Below are positions 9,341 to 36,002 of a stretch of DNA of 36,143 nucleotides, one piece after another. The stretch's first letter is position 1. Every line of letters starts with the position of its first letter. The translations under genes and the position numbers were made by a program. This DNA is from Gallionellales bacterium RIFCSPLOWO2_02_FULL_57_47 (GTDB lineage: Bacteria > Pseudomonadota > Gammaproteobacteria > Burkholderiales > Gallionellaceae), in contig MGWZ01000023.1 in NCBI GenBank assembly GCA_001801175.1, positions 1 to 36,143 on the forward strand. The letters are read 5' to 3'. Under the pieces are notes generated by a model that was not told where the DNA came from, searched no databases, and was given only the letters and a program-made list of their open reading frames with translations.

Positions 9341-9556
9341 AGGATGCGGTGAGGCACGAACCGCATCATTCGCCGACCCGAACGCCGCTCGCAACACGTC
9401 CTTGCGGTCAACGAGCAGGCTGTTTCCCTTGCGTTGCGCGAGGTTTACCGTGAAGAACCAGCTTGCTCCGGGAACATGGGGCGGTATTTGGTCATGAAGG
9501 CTCTGCTTTGTTGTACAGGTTACGCGAGCGATGCGGTTCGTGCCTCACCGCATCCT
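9341..9556. mobile_element. 216-bp MITE/REP-doublet-like element with perfect 27-bp terminal inverted repeats
   Basis: aggatgcggtgaggcacgaaccgcatc at 9341-9367 is the exact reverse complement of gatgcggttcgtgcctcaccgcatcct at 9530-9556. Confidence 0.8.
9374..9495 (-). pseudogene. Decayed N-terminal fragment resembling a REP-associated tyrosine transposase (RAYT, Y1_Tnp family)
   Basis: Minus strand reads MTKYRPMFP then, after a frameshift, GASWFFTVNLAQRKGNSLLVDRKDVLRAAF. This resembles the RAYT N-terminus (…YRR…PGGTWFFTVNLLER…LLV…I.LLR…). It is enclosed by the 27-bp inverted repeats. Confidence 0.6.
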
Positions 9557-13203: not shown

Positions 13204-15268
13204 TTTCTTCCGCTGTCTGCTATTGGCAGCCCTGATGCTCTCGTCGCATTGGGCTGCGGCTGATTCCGCCGAAACCGCACTGATGCCGGGCAAGGTGATC
13301 GAGGGCCATGCCAAGTACGAGGACGAATGCAAGAACTGCCACAAGCGCTTCGACAAGGCCGCGCAGACCGGCCTATGCCTCGACTGCCACAAGGAAACCG
13401 CGGCGGATGTTCGCTCGCACAAGGGCTATCACGGGCGCCTTAAGGACAATGAGTGCCGCACCTGCCACACCGACCACAAGGGTCGCAACGCCAAGATAGT
13501 CATCTTCGACAAAACGAGCTTCAAACATGACGAGACCGGCTTCATTCTCGAAGACAAGCACAAGACTGCCAAGTGCGAGGGTTGCCACAAACCCAAGCTG
13601 AAATATCGCGAAACACCCTCCAAATGCGACTCATGCCATCAGAAGGATGACGTTCATAAAGGCAAGCTTGGCCTTGAATGCGGCAACTGCCATGACGCAA
13701 AGGACTGGAAAAAATCAACGTTCGACCACGAGAAATCCAAATTCAAACTGGCCGGCGGTAAACACGCGGATGTTAAATGCGAGAAATGTCACTTTGACAA
13801 GGCGCTCAAGCTTGACAAGACTTTCAAGGAGGCTTCAAAAGAGTGCAATTCCTGCCACCGCAAGGATGACCAGGCCAAGGGACACAAGGGGCGCTATGGG
13901 GAAAAATGCGAAACCTGCCATAACGACCGTAGCTGGAAGGAAATACATTTCGATCACGACAAGGACACCAAATATGTGCTTCTCGACAAGCACGAGAAGG
14001 TGAAATGCGATTCCTGCCATTTGCCGGCAAAGCCGTTGTACAAACAGAATCTTTCGACGACGTGCGTGGCTTGCCATCGCAAGGATGACAAGGAAAAAGG
14101 CCACCAGGGCAAGCTCGGCGACAAGTGCGAAAGCTGCCACACAGAAAAAGACTGGAAAACCACCAAGTTCGATCACGACAAGGATACGAAATACCCGCTC
14201 AAGGGCAAGCATCGCGATGCCAAGTGCGACACTTGCCACAAGAGCGGCGTGGCTGGAATTGCCAGCAAGAAGCCGCTGGAAAAACTGGAGACGGCGTGCG
14301 TCAGCTGCCACCGCAAGGATGACCAGGAGAAAGGCCACAAGGGAACTTATGGCGCCAAGTGCGAATCCTGCCATACCGAGAAAGACTGGAAAACCCTGAC
14401 CTTCGACCATACGCGGGATACGAAATACCCGCTGAAGGAAAAGCACGTTCCGGTCAAATGCAAGTCCTGCCACCTTCCCGACAAACAGTTGTACGGGCAG
14501 AAACTGGAGACCACCTGTGTCAGTTGTCACCGCAAGGTTGACCAGGAGAAAGCCCACAAGGGAACGTATGGCGCCAAGTGCGAATCCTGCCATACCGAGA
14601 AAGACTGGAAAACCCTGACCTTCGACCATACGCGGGATACGAAATACCCGCTGAAGGGCAAGCACATTCCGGTCAAATGCAAATCCTGCCACCTCCCCGA
14701 CAAGCAGTTGTATGGGCAGAAGCTGGAGACCACCTGCATTTCCTGCCACCGCAAGGATGACAAGCACAAGGACCAGCTCGGCACAAAATGCGAAACCTGC
14801 CACACCGAGGAATCCTGGACCAAAACCAGATTCGACCACCAGCGCATGTCGAAATACCCCCTGCTGGGCAGGCATGCGCTGGTGAGCTGCAAGAAGTGCC
14901 ACACTGCCCTGACCTACAAGGATGCAAGCAAGGAGTGCTTCGGCTGCCACGAGAAGGACGACAAGCACAAGCGGCGTCTGGGCACGGAATGCCAGGACTG
15001 CCACTCTGCACGCTCATGGCAGGCGTGGGATTTCGACCACAACAAGACCGATTTCAAACTGGACGGTCCGCACAAGAAGGCAGCAAACAAGTGCTACGAC
15101 TGCCACCAGAAGCCGATGGATAAGAAGGTGCTGGCATCCACTGCGTGCGGCAGCTGCCATGACCGCGAAGACGTGCATAACGGCAGCTATGGCGATCGCT
15201 GCGACCGTTGCCACGACGGCAATGACTGGAAGCAGGTCAAGATGGGTACGATAGTTCCGCAAAAGTAG
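13175..15268 (+). CDS. Large multiheme c-type cytochrome, 27 CXXCH motifs
   Basis: Signal peptide ([29 protein letters not shown]); 27 CXXCH motifs counted by eye in 697 aa; repeated module Cx[47 protein letters not shown]. Confidence 0.95.
14290..14755 (+). repeat. Near-identical 219-bp (73-aa, three-heme) tandem duplication inside the 27-heme cytochrome
   Basis: ggaac[t/g]tatggcgccaagtgcgaatcctgccataccgagaaagactggaaaaccctgaccttcgaccatacgcgggatacgaaatacccgctgaag begins at 14342 and again at 14561 (period 219). Confidence 0.9.
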
Positions 15269-15345
15269 AACTATTGAAGATTCAACCAGTCCTATGCGTT
15301 TGAAAAAATAGCATCTTTTGAGAATAATTGTGGAGGAGGTGGATC

Positions 15346-16530
15346 GTGAGACAACTTGAACAAAAAATATGGCGCGGTTTGATTGCGATGACATTAGCGA
15401 TTGCTTCTTTGCAGGCCGTGGCCGCTGAACAATTGGGCGGGCGCGATTTCAACCATATGACCACCGGTTTCCCGCTTTCCGGCGTACATGCCACGGCGGC
15501 ATGCGAGACCTGCCACGTAGGCGGTGTCCTCAAGGGCACGCCGAGGAACTGCGATGGCTGCCATGCGCTCGGCCAGCGCGTCGTGGCAACGCCGAAATCC
15601 ACCAGCCACATCGTGACCGATGCTCCATGCGAAAACTGTCACTTCAATACGGCGACTTTTCTGGGGGCGCGCTATAACCACGGCGCGGCCATGCCTGGAC
15701 AATGCCGGACTTGCCACAACGGGCTGCAGGCAACCGGCAAGCCGGGCAGCCACAACACCGGCAGCAAGGCCACGGCATCCTGCGATCAATGCCACAGGTC
15801 TGTTGCATGGGGCCCCGCATCATGGAACCACACCGGCGTCGCTCCGGGCACCTGTACGACTTGCCACAACGGCAGCACGGCAATCGGCAAACCGGCGGGC
15901 CATAACACGGTCGCCAAGGCTACATTTCAGTGTGATGAATGCCATTCCTTTATCGGCTGGCTCCCCGCCAGATACAAACACACCACGGCCGGAGTTTGCT
16001 CGAGTTGCCACGACGGCGCCACGGCGATCGGCAAGCCGGCAAGCCATAGTCCGGCAGCCATCAAGGGTATAAACCCCTGCAGCGACTGCCATAAAGTAAC
16101 AACAAGCTGGCTCCCCGCAACGTATACGCACAGCGCGTCTGGCACATGCGTGATTTGCCATGACGGCATCAAGGCGGTGGGCAAGAGTGTGGGTCATATC
16201 GCTACGACCGACGACTGCAATAGCTGCCATACATCTACGCTGACCTGGGCGGGTGCGCTTGGCGGCAAACCGGCTAACCACATTCCCTATATTGCCGGGG
16301 TGACGTGCAGTGCCTGCCATATCGGAACCACTGTGGTGAAAGGGGCTCCCTTGCATGCTTATGTTTCTTTACCTTGCACTACCTGTCACTTGAAAGGCAA
16401 TGGATTGCTCGGAAACATGGATACAAAATCAATTGGGCATGAAGGCATGAAGGCAGGAGATGATTGTTCCAAGTCAGGATGCCATAAGCCATTGGGAAGC
16501 CGAGGCACCCTGTATACGAACTGGGATTGA
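15346..16530 (+). CDS. Multiheme c-type cytochrome, 13 CXXCH plus one CX4CH motif
   Basis: GTG start at 15346 preceded by ggaggaggt; signal peptide; 13 CXXCH motifs counted by eye plus CSKSGCH near the C-terminus; repeating CHNGxxAxGKPxxH...CxxCHxxxxWxPAxxxHT module. Confidence 0.92.
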   Translation: MRQLEQKIWRGLIAMTLAIASLQAVAAEQLGGRDFNHMTTGFPLSGVHATAACETCHVGGVLKGTPRNCDGCHALGQRVVATPKSTSHIVTDAPCENCHFNTATFLGARYNHGAAMPGQCRTCHNGLQATGKPGSHNTGSKATASCDQCHRSVAWGPASWNHTGVAPGTCTTCHNGSTAIGKPAGHNTVAKATFQCDECHSFIGWLPARYKHTTAGVCSSCHDGATAIGKPASHSPAAIKGINPCSDCHKVTTSWLPATYTHSASGTCVICHDGIKAVGKSVGHIATTDDCNSCHTSTLTWAGALGGKPANHIPYIAGVTCSACHIGTTVVKGAPLHAYVSLPCTTCHLKGNGLLGNMDTKSIGHEGMKAGDDCSKSGCHKPLGSRGTLYTNWD

Positions 16531-22547: not shown

Positions 22548-22622
22548 CAATAAGCGCAGCGCATTGCGCCGTATGAATCTTTTCCCCGCCAAACCATCCG
22601 GTGCAATGCGCTGCGCTTATTG
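22548..22622. repeat. Inverted repeat element (CAATAAGCGCAGCGCATTGCGCCG ... CGGTGCAATGCGCTGCGCTTATTG)
   Basis: 24-bp arms with one mismatch. Confidence 0.75.
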
Positions 22623-27494: not shown

Positions 27495-27500
27495 CAAGCG

Positions 27501-27584
27501 TAGGATGGGTTGAGCGTAGCGATACCCGTCAATTCATCAAATGTTATCTCAGAGATGGGTATCGCGATGCTCAACCCATCCTAC
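27501..27584. repeat. REPIN-like palindrome between convergent genes
   Basis: gtaggatgggttgagcgtagcgatacccgtc ... gatgggtatcgcgatgctcaacccatcctac. The right arm also encodes the hoxX C-terminus and stop (RYRRMG*). Confidence 0.85.
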
Positions 27585-29472
27585 GATATCTGCCCCCCGC
27601 AATGCGTCGATGCCGCGCCAGATACAGCGGCGTCCAGGCGTGGGGAATCTTGTACACGAAGTTGTAGCGCGCCACATGGTAGCTGGGATCGAAGCCGTAA
27701 AAATTGAGTTTCATGTGTTGCAGTTCTTCGGCGCGGTAGGCATCCAGCGGCTTTTCCCGCTCGTCGCGTTCGCGCCGGGCAATCTTTTCCCGCAATAGCG
27801 CGGAGCATTCCGGACTGGCGGCCAGCCCTTCGGCGATCTGTTCTATCCTTGCCAGAAAATCTTTCCGGTCAGTTCCGAAGCAGCCGTCGATTAATCCCAT
27901 CCCGCGCGCTTCCGCCGCGCCGACCGGCAGGCGGTTCTGCGTCAGCGACGCCGCCCTCGCCTCGCCCACGCGCTTCGGCAGCAGGTAGGTCCAGTATTCC
28001 GAGCCGTACAGGTTGCCCATGCCCTTGTAGTGCGGGTTGAACACCACGCCCTCGCGCGCATAAACGCGATCCGCCGCCAGCGACAGGAACACGCCGCCCG
28101 CGCCGGCATTGCCCTGCAACGCGGCGATGGTTAGCTGGCTGCCGGTGGTGGCGATGGCGCGCGTCAGGTCGTTCATCGCGTTGATATTGCGCCAGGATTC
28201 ATCCGTCGGGCTGGCGGCGGCCTCGATGCAGTTGAGATGGATGCCGTTCGACCAGAAGTCCGCGCCGCCCATCAGCACGATCACCCGCACATCACGTTGC
28301 GTGGCGGTCAGATAAGCGTCGCGCAATCGGTCGCATTGTTCACTGCTCATCGCGCCGTTGTAGAAATCGAAATGCAGATAACCGACGTTGTTCTTTTGCT
28401 CGAACCGGATGTCGCGCCAGGTTTCGCCAGCGCTTGGCGAAAACGGATCGAGCGGCGCTTCCGGTACATCGGCGAGATGCGCTTCCAGCGCCAGTACGGC
28501 GGGTAATTTCAGCCCATACTGTTCATTGGAACTATGACCACAGTCCCTTCCCCCTTGCAGGGGGAAGGATAGGATGGGGGTAGAAGTGCGGGTAAGCAGA
28601 GTTTCTACCCCCTCCCTAACCCTCCCCCTGCAAGGGGGAGGGGATGTTGCGCCTGATGGATTGCTTGTGCTTAACCCCGATCGTTCATTATCCCATTCGT
28701 CCTTGCGCTTCAGATGGCCGATCCAAACCGCGCTGTCGAGTGTGGCGCGGCAGATCGCGCCGTTGCGTTGTGCGATGATTTTGCCAGGCTCGCTGCCGCG
28801 CAGCGTGTCCTCGGCGCAGGCATCGAACAGGTAATACTCACCTCCGCACAGCGTGTCGAGCACTCCGGGAAATCCGTCGGAGGCGTGGATCTTTTTCAGC
28901 ACCGTGCGCGTGTCATCATGACTCCAGTCAATGGCGCGATCGGCCTGTTTGATCGATGCATGCAACCGGCCGCGCACCTCGGGGCGTGAATAATCCAGCG
29001 GCTGCGGTTTGAAATCGCTGGACTGGAAACGCTCCACCGCCACCAGCACCGCGCGCACCGCCGCCTCGATCACTTCGTTGCGGTACAGGCTGCTCTTCTT
29101 CGCCAGCCGCATCGGAAAGGTTTCCGCCGCCCAGATGTCGCCGCCATCCATTTCGCCATTGGCCTGCAACACCGTGACGCCCCATTCCGCGCAATCGCGC
29201 ATGATCGCCCAGTCCAGCGCCGACGGCCCGCGGTCGCCGACGATGCCGGGATGCACCACGAAACAGACATGGTTGCGCCACACCGTCTCGGGGATGGCGC
29301 GCTTGAGGAACGGCGCGACGATGAGCTCGGGGCGATAAAGCTCGACCGCCTGCACCGTGACCGCATCGTTGATGTCGAACTCGATGGACACCTCATGCCC
29401 GCGCCGTGTCAGTTCGATATACAGGCGCTGCGCGAGGCTGTTGAAAGAGTGGGTGAGGAACAGGGTCTTCAT
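27571..29472 (-). CDS. hoxX: Hydrogenase maturation protein HoxX (formyltransferase-like + enoyl-CoA hydratase-like), with in-frame palindrome insertion
   Basis: Start at MKTLFLTHSFNSLAQRLYIELTRRGHEVSIEFD (29472); VHPGIVGDRGPSALDWAI, AALQGNAGAGGVFLSLAADRV, HYKGMGNLYGSEYWTYLLPKRVG. Sits in a hyp cluster. Confidence 0.93.
   Translation of the reverse strand: MKTLFLTHSFNSLAQRLYIELTRRGHEVSIEFDINDAVTVQAVELYRPELIVAPFLKRAIPETVWRNHVCFVVHPGIVGDRGPSALDWAIMRDCAEWGVTVLQANGEMDGGDIWAAETFPMRLAKKSSLYRNEVIEAAVRAVLVAVERFQSSDFKPQPLDYSRPEVRGRLHASIKQADRAIDWSHDDTRTVLKKIHASDGFPGVLDTLCGGEYYLFDACAEDTLRGSEPGKIIAQRNGAICRATLDSAVWIGHLKRKDEWDNERSGLSTSNPSGATSPPPCRGRVREGVETLLTRTSTPILSFPLQGGRDCGHSSNEQYGLKLPAVLALEAHLADVPEAPLDPFSPSAGETWRDIRFEQKNNVGYLHFDFYNGAMSSEQCDRLRDAYLTATQRDVRVIVLMGGADFWSNGIHLNCIEAAASPTDESWRNINAMNDLTRAIATTGSQLTIAALQGNAGAGGVFLSLAADRVYAREGVVFNPHYKGMGNLYGSEYWTYLLPKRVGEARAASLTQNRLPVGAAEARGMGLIDGCFGTDRKDFLARIEQIAEGLAASPECSALLREKIARRERDEREKPLDAYRAEELQHMKLNFYGFDPSYHVARYNFVYKIPHAWTPLYLARHRRIAGGRYRRMG
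28544..28643. repeat. Double-hairpin palindromic element (copy E1), inside the hoxX coding sequence
   Basis: cccttcccccttgcagggggaaggataggatgggggtagaa ... tttctaccccctccctaaccctccccctgcaagggggagggg. The arms are imperfect inverted repeats of about 40 bp, each containing its own hairpin. Confidence 0.9.
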
Positions 29473-29532: not shown

Positions 29533-29643
29533 CTCCCTTCTCCCGCAGGCGGGAGAAGGGCCGGGGATGAGGGGCTGTGAACTCACTAAAACTTTCCATT
29601 GCACAACCCTCACCCCAACCCCTCTCCCGCCTGCGGGAGAGGG
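29533..29643. repeat. Double-hairpin palindromic element (copy E2), hoxX-hypE intergenic
   Basis: ctcccttctcccgcaggcgggagaagggccggggatgagggg ... ccctcaccccaacccctctcccgcctgcgggagaggg. Confidence 0.9.
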
Positions 29644-29654
29644 ACTATGTAGCC

Positions 29655-30704
<1,050 letters not shown>

Positions 30705-30712
30705 CGCTTTAA

Positions 30713-30828
30713 CTCCCTTCCCCCGCAGGCGGGGGAAGGGCCGGGGATGAGGGGCTGTGAGTTTATACAAACGCAATTCATGCTCGACACCCCTCACCCC
30801 AACCCCTCTCCCGCCTGCGGGAGAGGGG
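30713..30828. repeat. Double-hairpin palindromic element (copy E3), 3' flank of DUF559 gene
   Basis: ctcccttcccccgcaggcgggggaagggccggggatgagggg ... cccctcaccccaacccctctcccgcctgcgggagagggg. Confidence 0.9.
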
Positions 30829-31234
30829 CTATTAGATCTGAATTAGTCTCAACAACAGCCTGATAAATCACTTCCATAACTGCCTCCGTCTCCGCCAGCA
30901 TTTGATTATTCCAGAAACGCAGCACACGAATTCCTTGTGAACGCAGCCAACTATCCCGTTGTTCATCGTAATCAGCAGCCTCACCATGCTGGCCACCATC
31001 AAGCTCAATAGCCAGATTCTTCTCGACGCAATAATAATCGAGGATATATCGCCCCACCGGATGTTGCCGCCTGAATTTTGCGCCAGCGATGCGGCGATTG
31101 CGCAAAAGCATCCACAGCAAGGCTTCCGCATCCGTCATGCGGCTGCGCATTTCTCTGGCCCAGGTTCGGATATCTTCGGGAAGTTTAGCGGGGTGATGTG
31201 GTATGTAATTTTCCATGCGGAGCATCTTGATCAT
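30794..31234 (-). CDS. DUF559 (Vsr/PD-(D/E)XK-like) endonuclease-domain protein
   Basis: TDAEALLWMLLRNRRIAGAKFRRQHPVGRYILDYYCVEKNLAIELDGGQH...RDSWLRSQGIRVLRFWNNQ is the DUF559 signature. C-terminal APLPQAGEGLG* is encoded by palindrome E3. Confidence 0.9.
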   Translation of the reverse strand: MIKMLRMENYIPHHPAKLPEDIRTWAREMRSRMTDAEALLWMLLRNRRIAGAKFRRQHPVGRYILDYYCVEKNLAIELDGGQHGEAADYDEQRDSWLRSQGIRVLRFWNNQMLAETEAVMEVIYQAVVETNSDLIAPLPQAGEGLG

Positions 31235-31238
31235 TATT

Positions 31239-31353
31239 CCCCTCTCCCGCAGGCGGAAGAGGGGCTAGGGGTGAGGGGCTGTGTGTACCTGAAATGATGT
31301 TCATATTCGAAGACCCTCATCCCCGGCCCTTCTCCCGCCTGCGGGAGAAGGGA
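31239..31353. repeat. Double-hairpin palindromic element (copy E4, inverted relative to E3), 5' flank of DUF559 gene
   Basis: cccctctcccgcaggcggaagaggggctaggggtgagggg ... ccctcatccccggcccttctcccgcctgcgggagaagggag. Confidence 0.9.
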
Positions 31354-31373
31354 GTAGCACATATCGCCAGTCA

Positions 31374-32501
31374 TCAAGCTGCCTCCCTGAATCTTCCATA
31401 GCTGTAATGCGCCGCACACGCGCCTTCGGATGAAACCATGCACGAGCCGATCGGATTATCGGGCGTGCAGACCGTGCCGAACAGCTTGCAATCCTGCGGG
31501 CGCTTCACGCCGCGCAGGATCGCGCCGCATTCGCATGCCTTGTTGTCAGCGATCGAAATGTCCGGAATCTGAAAGCGCAATTCGGCATCGTAATCGGCGT
31601 ATTGCTTCTTGATGCGCAGCGCGCTGTAGGGCACCAATCCGAGGCCGCGCCATTCGAACACGCGGCGCAGTTCGAATACTTCCGCGACCAGCAACTGCGC
31701 CTTGACGTTGCCGTCGCGCGTCACCGCGCGCGAGAATTCGTTTTCCACTTCGGCGCGGCCTTGGTTCAACTGGCGCACCAGCATCAATATGGCCTGCATC
31801 ACGTCGAGCGGCTCGAACCCGGCGATCACCACGGGCTTCTGGAACTCCTCGGCAAAATATTCGTAAGGGCGGCTGCCGATCACCGTCGAGACATGTGCCG
31901 GGCCGATGAAGCCGTCCAGCGACAGCACGCCGAGCTGGCGGATTTCGGGCGATTGCAGGATGTGCGAAATCGCCGAGGGGGTCAGCACATGGTTGCAGAA
32001 CACGCTGAAGTTCTTGAGATCAAGCGCCTGCGCCTGTCTGATCGCCACCGCCGTCGGCGGCGTGGTGGTCTCGAAGCCGATCGCGAAAAACACCACCTGC
32101 CGCTGCGGATTCTGCTGCGCGATCTTCACCGCGTCTGCGCTGGAATACACCATGCGCACATCCGCGCCGCGCGCCTTGGCTTTCAGCAGGTTCTTGCCGT
32201 CGGCCGCCGGCACTCGCAGCATGTCGCCGTAACAACACAGGATCAGTCCCGGCATTTGCGCCAGCCGGATGGCATTCTCCACCCGGCCCGCCGGCAGCAC
32301 GCACACCGGGCAGCCGGGGCCATGGATCATGCGCACGTTGGCTGGCAACAGGTCGGCGATGCCGTAGCGCGAAATCGCGTGGGTATGGCCGCCGCAGAAT
32401 TCCATCAGGTGATAACGGCGGCTCGGGTCGGCTTCGCGTGCGATGTTCGCGGCGATGTTTTTCGCCAGCGCGCCGTCGCGGAATTCGTCGACGTATTTCA
32501 T
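31374..32501 (-). CDS. hypD: Hydrogenase formation protein HypD
   Basis: MKYVDEFRDGALAKNIAANI, MEFCGGHTHAISRYGI, HGPGCPVCVLPAG, GFETTTPPTAVAI. Confidence 0.98.
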   Translation of the reverse strand: MKYVDEFRDGALAKNIAANIAREADPSRRYHLMEFCGGHTHAISRYGIADLLPANVRMIHGPGCPVCVLPAGRVENAIRLAQMPGLILCCYGDMLRVPAADGKNLLKAKARGADVRMVYSSADAVKIAQQNPQRQVVFFAIGFETTTPPTAVAIRQAQALDLKNFSVFCNHVLTPSAISHILQSPEIRQLGVLSLDGFIGPAHVSTVIGSRPYEYFAEEFQKPVVIAGFEPLDVMQAILMLVRQLNQGRAEVENEFSRAVTRDGNVKAQLLVAEVFELRRVFEWRGLGLVPYSALRIKKQYADYDAELRFQIPDISIADNKACECGAILRGVKRPQDCKLFGTVCTPDNPIGSCMVSSEGACAAHYSYGRFREAA

Positions 32502-34890: not shown

Positions 34891-34931
34891 ATCTGCTCCT
34901 TATTCCATTTTTATATCAGAAGCAAATACCG

Positions 34932-34982
34932 TAGGGTGCATTCCATACACCATTAATATTGGTGCATGGAATGCACCCTACA
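34932..34982. repeat. Near-perfect GTAGGGTGCATTCCA palindrome between hypB and hypA
   Basis: gtagggtgcattccatacacc-attaatatt-ggtgcatggaatgcaccctac. Confidence 0.9.
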
Positions 34983-35887: not shown

Positions 35888-35904
35888 GATTTGCGTTGAA
35901 TTTT

Positions 35905-35977
35905 AACCCCTCCAGACCTCCCCTTGTCAGGGGAGGCCATCATCTCCTCCCCTGACAAGGGGAGGCTGGGAGGGGTT
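35905..35977. repeat. Double-hairpin palindrome (copy E5) between large subunit and protease genes
   Basis: aacccctccagacctccccttgtcaggggagg-ccatcatct-cctcccctgacaaggggaggctgggaggggtt. Confidence 0.9.
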
Positions 35978-36002
35978 GCTATTCGGTTCATCAAGCATTG
36001 GA

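Follow-up and report, generated by a model that had tools for sequence, protein, structure and literature searches.

DUF559 nuclease genes bounded by paired hairpin repeats: a candidate class of very small mobile elements in bacteria

Genes encoding proteins of the DUF559 family, to which YcjD of Escherichia coli belongs, are nearly always bounded by short hairpin units with a G-tract tail. We consider it probable that a gene bounded in this way, together with its units, is the autonomous form of a very small mobile element, whose nuclease would recognise its own ends and would also mobilise gene-less copies. The gene-less double hairpins are the already known PIT/TM/TMECO "intrastrand triplex motif" repeats. 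The repeat and the nuclease domain have each been known before, and it is their link that appears to be new; no earlier report of it was found in the literature searched (also under ycjD, COG2852 and CCCTCTCCC), with preprints and subscription journals mostly outside the scope of the search. The proposal is supported by the flanking units and their inward orientation, the covariation of protein and palindrome, the co-occurrence of both in genomes, alternative site states, dispersed near-identical copies, purifying selection and the nuclease fold. Together, this suggests that DUF559 is the missing enzyme spreading these hairpins and that both form a very small, undescribed kind of mobile DNA.

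The DUF559 gene of the window and its hairpin elements

The window, i.e., the whole analysed stretch of 36,143 nucleotides from Gallionellales bacterium RIFCSPLOWO2_02_FULL_57_47, contains a DUF559 gene on the minus strand (30,794–31,234), which encodes a protein of 146 amino acids. The gene is located between its upstream operon neighbour hypD (31,374–32,501, minus strand) and hypE downstream (29,655–30,704, minus strand). The original prediction had placed a single open reading frame of this length between these two genes, and its coordinates and geometry proved correct. Residues 22–127 match the Pfam profile PF04480 (136.1 bits, cut-off 20.6), which identifies the product as a DUF559 protein, a PD-(D/E)XK nuclease similar to Vsr and the EDxHD enzymes. 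The only other Pfam match of the protein was a sub-threshold one to an REase. A transposase domain of the DDE, HUH, serine or tyrosine type was not found in the protein with Pfam, nor was Y1_Tnp (PF01797), the enzyme domain of REP-RAYT systems, and neither the protein nor the source genome matched PF03852 (Vsr).

Two complete double hairpin-tail elements flank the gene, E3 (30,713–30,831) at its 3′ end and E4 (31,238–31,354) at its 5′ end. They are inverted relative to each other, in agreement with the prediction, and comprise four hairpins (30,715–30,740, 30,801–30,830, 31,239–31,264 and 31,327–31,352). A query 98% identical to E3 matched E4 at 82% on the opposite strand, and the outer arms (30,712–30,769 and 31,298–31,355) form an 84% inverted repeat. 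E3 overlaps the gene and supplies its end, as had been proposed: the last codons (APLPQAGEGLG) and the TGA stop codon (30,794–30,796) are part of the element, and the ATG of hypE (30,702–30,704) follows closely. The further claim that E4 provides the Shine–Dalgarno sequence is plausible, as the arm GGGAGAGGGG ends 3–4 nucleotides upstream of the listed ATG. However, the first methionine of the homologue at locus L284 of a congener corresponds to Met7 of the window's reading frame (MENYIPHHP), so the exact start and the Shine–Dalgarno role are uncertain.

Gene-less elements are also present in the window. E2 (29,533–29,647), downstream of hypE, is a gene-less copy of the E3/E4 element, and E1 (28,544–28,644) is a related double hairpin of the CCCTTCCCCCTTGCAGGGGGAAGG type. 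E5 (35,898–35,984) is a gene-less double hairpin of the CTCCCCTTGTCAGGGGAG type. Its family, which differs from that of E3 and E4, also lies upstream of L002, the second DUF559 gene in the source genome. Pattern and BLAST searches across the 2.8-Mb source genome gave 86 occurrences of the palindrome CCYTCYCCC..GGGRGARGG and none of a reversed control pattern; the palindromes of the window are therefore beyond chance. An Rfam scan of the window yielded no match.

E2, E3 and E4 fit the definition of the PIT ("potential intrastrand triplex") or TM motif when compared with the TMECO table, with a C-tract that pairs with a G-tract in the hairpin, a third G-tract behind it and a predicted formation of a triplex, and they are the same repeat. 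The motif was described as CCCTCTCCC..GGGAGAGGG-NNN-GGGTGAGGG, occurring singly or in inverted pairs and embedded in more variable sequence, with 23 copies in E. coli (Holder et al., 2015, PMC4666352). Two differences are apparent. Remnants of transposases or integrases were never found near TM motifs by Holder et al. (PMC4666352), whereas here a DUF559 gene lies between the units, and many DUF559 clades have other hairpin sequences with an identical architecture. In E. coli, TMECO motif no. 9 is located about 170 bp downstream of the DUF559 gene ycjD, and an apparent decayed hairpin overlaps the 3′ end of this gene.

Other repeats were observed in the window as well. Another palindrome family (GTAGGGTGCATTCCATGCACC) lies at 34,931–34,981 and recurs in the hypD–hypE gap of two congeners (L214 and L215); this gap collects different palindromic elements. 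Three additional inverted-repeat pairs (9,341–9,556, 22,548–22,622 and 27,499–27,585; AGGATGCGGTGAGGC.., CAATAAGCGCAGCGC.. and CGTAGGATGGGTTGAGCG..) probably represent other REP-like families. The tandem coding repeats at 13,547–16,185 (periods of 219 and 150 nucleotides, many CxxCH-like motifs) are probably multihaem cytochrome repeats.

The AlphaFold2 model of the DUF559 protein (pLDDT 89) matches NGO0050 (3hrl), the domain of the homing endonuclease I-Bth0305I (3r3p; Foldseek E 1e-4, profile E 5e-4) and, weakly, Vsr (1vsr). Profile matches to unrelated PDB chains (E about 0.1) were discarded. Residues E16, D45, D58, H62 and D69 are invariant among 40 proteins. As judged from the model, the fold is of the Vsr/homing-endonuclease-like PD-(D/E)XK type, and the catalytic fold and the conserved acidic and histidine residues are shared with the EDxHD homing endonucleases and Vsr; a link between YcjD and Vsr had already been made in a profile study (PMC1189080). 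In contrast to these enzymes, the DUF559 genes are located outside introns and between hairpins of their own, and the PF03852 match is missing. The comparison of the window gene with that of L284 (dS 0.59, dN 0.046) gave a dN/dS of 0.08, and the protein is therefore kept under strong purifying selection.

Hairpin units at DUF559 genes across bacteria

In a first sample of 149 gammaproteobacterial genomes, one per family, PF04480 matches were detected in 48. For 40 strong matches, the surrounding sequence (at most 20 kb) was analysed together with the window (41 loci), and weak matches below about 60 bits inside very large reading frames were left out. Within 100 bp of the DUF559 genes, 47 PIT palindromes were counted (5.7 per kb), compared with 0.06–0.07 per kb at a distance of 2–10 kb. 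PITs occurred on both sides within 200 bp for 19 of the 41 DUF559 genes and for 4 of 390 other reading frames (Fisher's test, 3e-18). Loci without the PIT pattern mostly displayed hairpin-tail units of a different sequence, e.g., CCCCTCCTCGCAGGAGGGGGTTAGGGGGTGG and CCCCCTTTTTAAAGGGGGATTGAGGGGG. A scan of GTDB genomes added 80 loci, among them representatives of Nitrospirae, deltaproteobacterial groups, Chloroflexi, Dadabacteria, Spirochaetes, Planctomycetes, Alphaproteobacteria and Rickettsiales.

A sequence-blind assay, in which the 250 bp upstream were aligned with the reverse complement of the 250 bp downstream (score of at least 40), identified flanking inverted repeats at 26/41 and 58/78 DUF559 loci compared with 8/404 and 0/211 control reading frames; one of the 58, at L137, is due to a run of N and was discarded. 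Vsr genes of the same genome sample, used to ask whether small nuclease genes generally behave in this way, were never flanked (0/22). Overall, among 146 usable loci, 143 DUF559 genes had a hairpin with a C-rich arm within 260 bp upstream, downstream or both (55 of 571 control reading frames), and 120 had one on each side (4 of 571 controls); three genes had none and the others one side only. The enrichment of flanking palindromes that the original prediction put forward as a check is thus very strong. Terminal inverted repeats, at the score threshold of 40, were found at 101 of the 146 loci, a trait shared with classical insertion sequences. In many alphaproteobacterial and some other loci (L159, L164, L167, L177, L188, L190, L194), the main hairpin is separated from its G-tract tail by an additional, small hairpin, e.g., GGTGGCCGCAAAGCGGTCGGATGAGGGG; these units constitute a distinct subtype.

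The orientation of the units is largely uniform, too. At the 146 loci, the G-tract tail of the nearest unit points toward the gene rather than away from it in a ratio of 90:12 upstream and 84:13 downstream. The usual DUF559 locus consists of the gene in the spacer of one PIT double, with the units placed as in gene-less pairs. The window represents a rarer form, in which the gene lies between two complete doubles with the nearest tails directed away from it; the arrangement at L284 is identical. The comparison with a composite transposon made in the original prediction applies to this atypical locus only and was set aside, as the gene usually lies within a single double.

The sequence of the hairpins varies with that of the protein. 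Protein similarity and flank similarity were correlated (Spearman 0.41), a value reached in none of 300 Mantel permutations. For genomes with at least two DUF559 genes, 793 contrasts could be decided; they are not independent of each other, and in 679 of them (679:114) the flanks tracked the protein clade. On the genome level, at least five PITs were present in 22 of 30 genomes with a strong DUF559 match and in 13 of 119 without (p=3e-11; 149 families, with shared history and composition partly controlled). In these 13 PIT-rich genomes of the 149-genome sample, a strong DUF559 match was sought and not found; under the proposed model, they must have lost the gene or use other enzymes.

In some cases the cassette is part of another coding sequence. 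According to Pfam, DUF559 is found inside the open frames of an N6/N4 methylase, HsdM, two HsdS-type proteins, an MmeI-like enzyme, HrpA and MetG, and after SelD (L107, L120, L121, L122, L277, L286, L288 and L132). The hairpins translate as Gly/Pro-rich linkers, e.g., SPSGRGAGGEG, in the predicted fused proteins. Rickettsia palindromic elements (RPEs), which are palindromic repeats lying in frame within protein-coding genes, resemble these cassettes in placement. RPEs contain no gene, whereas the DUF559 inserts can hold a whole nuclease (HrpA, MetG, HsdM, MmeI-like enzyme).

Alternative site states and dispersed copies

The hypD–hypE site exists in several states. Both genes are directly adjacent in several relatives, so that the empty site sought by the original prediction was found. 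The congener locus L224 contains a gene-less PIT double that is 71–77% identical to E2–E4, and at L284 the same DUF559 insertion as in the window is present. The prediction had also named relatives with DUF559 at this place but without palindromes as evidence to the contrary; at L284, palindromes are present on both sides.

A similar series was observed for hrpA. In 17 of the 19 congeners shown, the gene reads EMGM-xxxx-P-A-T/S-YEQIHKALL with no extra sequence. L344 has a few extra residues, and L339 has one in-frame PIT unit. At the same point, the hrpA gene of L286/L328 carries a full in-frame PIT-DUF559-PIT cassette. Neither a target duplication nor the exact ends could be read from the comparison of the hrpA congeners.

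Dispersed copies were detected in genome G035, in which a unit of DUF559 between terminal inverted repeats occurs four times in unrelated contexts, as three copies with proteins of about 97% similarity and one internally deleted copy. The 75-bp terminal inverted repeats contain the hairpin unit. Direct repeats of 9 bp, assessed by eye, were exact at L103 (GTGCAGATT) and L104 (GTTTGTAAC) and agreed at 8 of 9 positions at L101; the fourth copy had none. The outermost 19 bp of the ends also occur alone elsewhere in the genome, and no transposase reading frame was recognised near these lone ends. These 19 bp and the direct repeats may belong to another element. Among the sites inspected, which included hrpA and E. 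coli, putative target duplications were seen in G035 only.

Of 5410 E. coli genomes, 3337 contain the 1.2-kb ycjD region over at least 80% of its length. The region was rejected as a clean insertion boundary, as the three strains examined that lack it carry other genes next to sapF. In the E. coli hrpB–mrcB gap (L317, L321–L324), the TM pair of strain MG1655 is missing in several strains; their sequence at this site differs by about a dozen bases, and a target duplication could not be read. In one further strain, the pair is partly removed by an internal deletion, and the gap provides states of one site that lend themselves to locating exact ends. In several congeners (L265 and L271, as well as L267, L269, L272 and L273), a DUF559 element separates the gene of a LolD-like ABC ATPase from that of an ABC permease. 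At L265 and L271, the first ~70 bp of the permease gene recur in diverged form on the opposite side of the element, too.

Proposed mechanism and competing explanations

In the proposed mechanism, the DUF559 nuclease would recognise the hairpin-tail units at both ends of its own element and would cut at or near them. The unit itself would then be copied or moved, and gene-less doubles (PIT/TM) would be mobilised in trans. Candidate routes of insertion are transposition-like, replication-linked or repair-mediated, the last by break repair into existing PITs and hence a form of homing. To our knowledge, strand transfer by a PD-(D/E)XK nuclease alone has not been described, which counts against the model.

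The original prediction had likened DUF559 and its palindromes to RAYTs and REPs. The genome co-occurrence and the covariation of hairpin and protein speak in favour of this idea; the palindromes themselves turned out to be the known PIT/TM motifs, and binding, cleavage and movement are what we infer. Both systems feature short palindromes in high copy number, inverted pairs and non-autonomous copies, as well as a single-copy nuclease gene that lies between inverted copies of the genome's own repeat and shares this repeat with the gene-less copies. Unlike the Y1 HUH enzyme RAYT (TnpA-REP) of REP/REPIN systems, DUF559 is a PD-(D/E)XK nuclease, and by inspection its hairpins have a G-tract tail and no GTAG tag. 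We rate the DUF559 cassettes as a new kind of putatively mobile element, because they lack the enzymes of RAYT/REP systems and classical insertion sequences and are not intron- or intein-borne homing endonucleases.

The main rival, which we regard as possible but clearly the less likely reading, is that DUF559 is a free-standing homing-type endonuclease that cuts gene-less PITs, with the gene being copied in by recombination between PIT arms, whereas the PITs spread otherwise or arise by gene loss. I-Bth0305I, an EDxHD homing endonuclease, has the closest characterised fold, the PIT arms around the gene could serve as homology arms, and at hypD–hypE as well as in hrpA, one congener carries a gene-less unit where another carries DUF559. 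However, such gene-less states are equally explained by an internal deletion of the gene, of which G035 provides an example, and the G035 copies, with their 75-bp terminal inverted repeats and, mostly, 9-bp direct repeats, occupy sites without a separate PIT. Homing also leaves the spread of PITs unexplained, although their number tracks DUF559.

The two remaining explanations fit poorly. That the PITs are moved by another enzyme, such as a RAYT/Y1 transposase, and that DUF559 is cargo captured between copies is improbable, even though Y1_Tnp genes are present in the source genome and in 98 of the 149 sampled genomes and 13 genomes are PIT-rich without a strong DUF559 match. Captured cargo does not agree with the scarcity of other reading frames flanked on both sides, with hairpins that follow the DUF559 clade within one genome, or with the strong purifying selection on the protein. 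The abundance of PITs is only weakly associated with Y1_Tnp (p=0.045), and five of the PIT-rich genomes with DUF559 lack any Y1 match, which makes RAYT unlikely as the sole mobiliser. Least probable is a purely regulatory role, in which immobile hairpins would influence a host nuclease gene at the RNA level or during translation (as ribosome-binding site or terminator, or through stability), for although the window hairpins adjoin the start and stop codons and the hundred such palindromes of Enterobacter sp. 638 are presumed terminators (PMC2869309), the units are inverted and present on both sides, many copies are gene-less, in-frame cassettes read open through the hairpins, site occupancy differs among congeners, and PIT motifs had neither promoter nor terminator activity according to earlier work as cited in PMC4666352.

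Returning to DUF559 as the enzyme of its own element, we lean slightly toward the broader view that the family and its paired units form a new, widespread class of minimal mobile elements, that hundreds of genomes harbour its non-autonomous copies in the form of PIT/TM repeats, and that the cassettes can insert in frame in housekeeping genes with the frame staying open. Laboratory E. coli, with ycjD and its motifs, allows a direct test of the model. The PIT/TM motifs, a large class of bacterial repeats that has lacked an explanation, would thereby be given a proposed origin, and a widespread domain with a member in E. coli a proposed function; the genomic instability that has been reported near TM motifs could be explained in this way as well. 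If true, DUF559 would be one more nuclease family among the drivers of mobile DNA.
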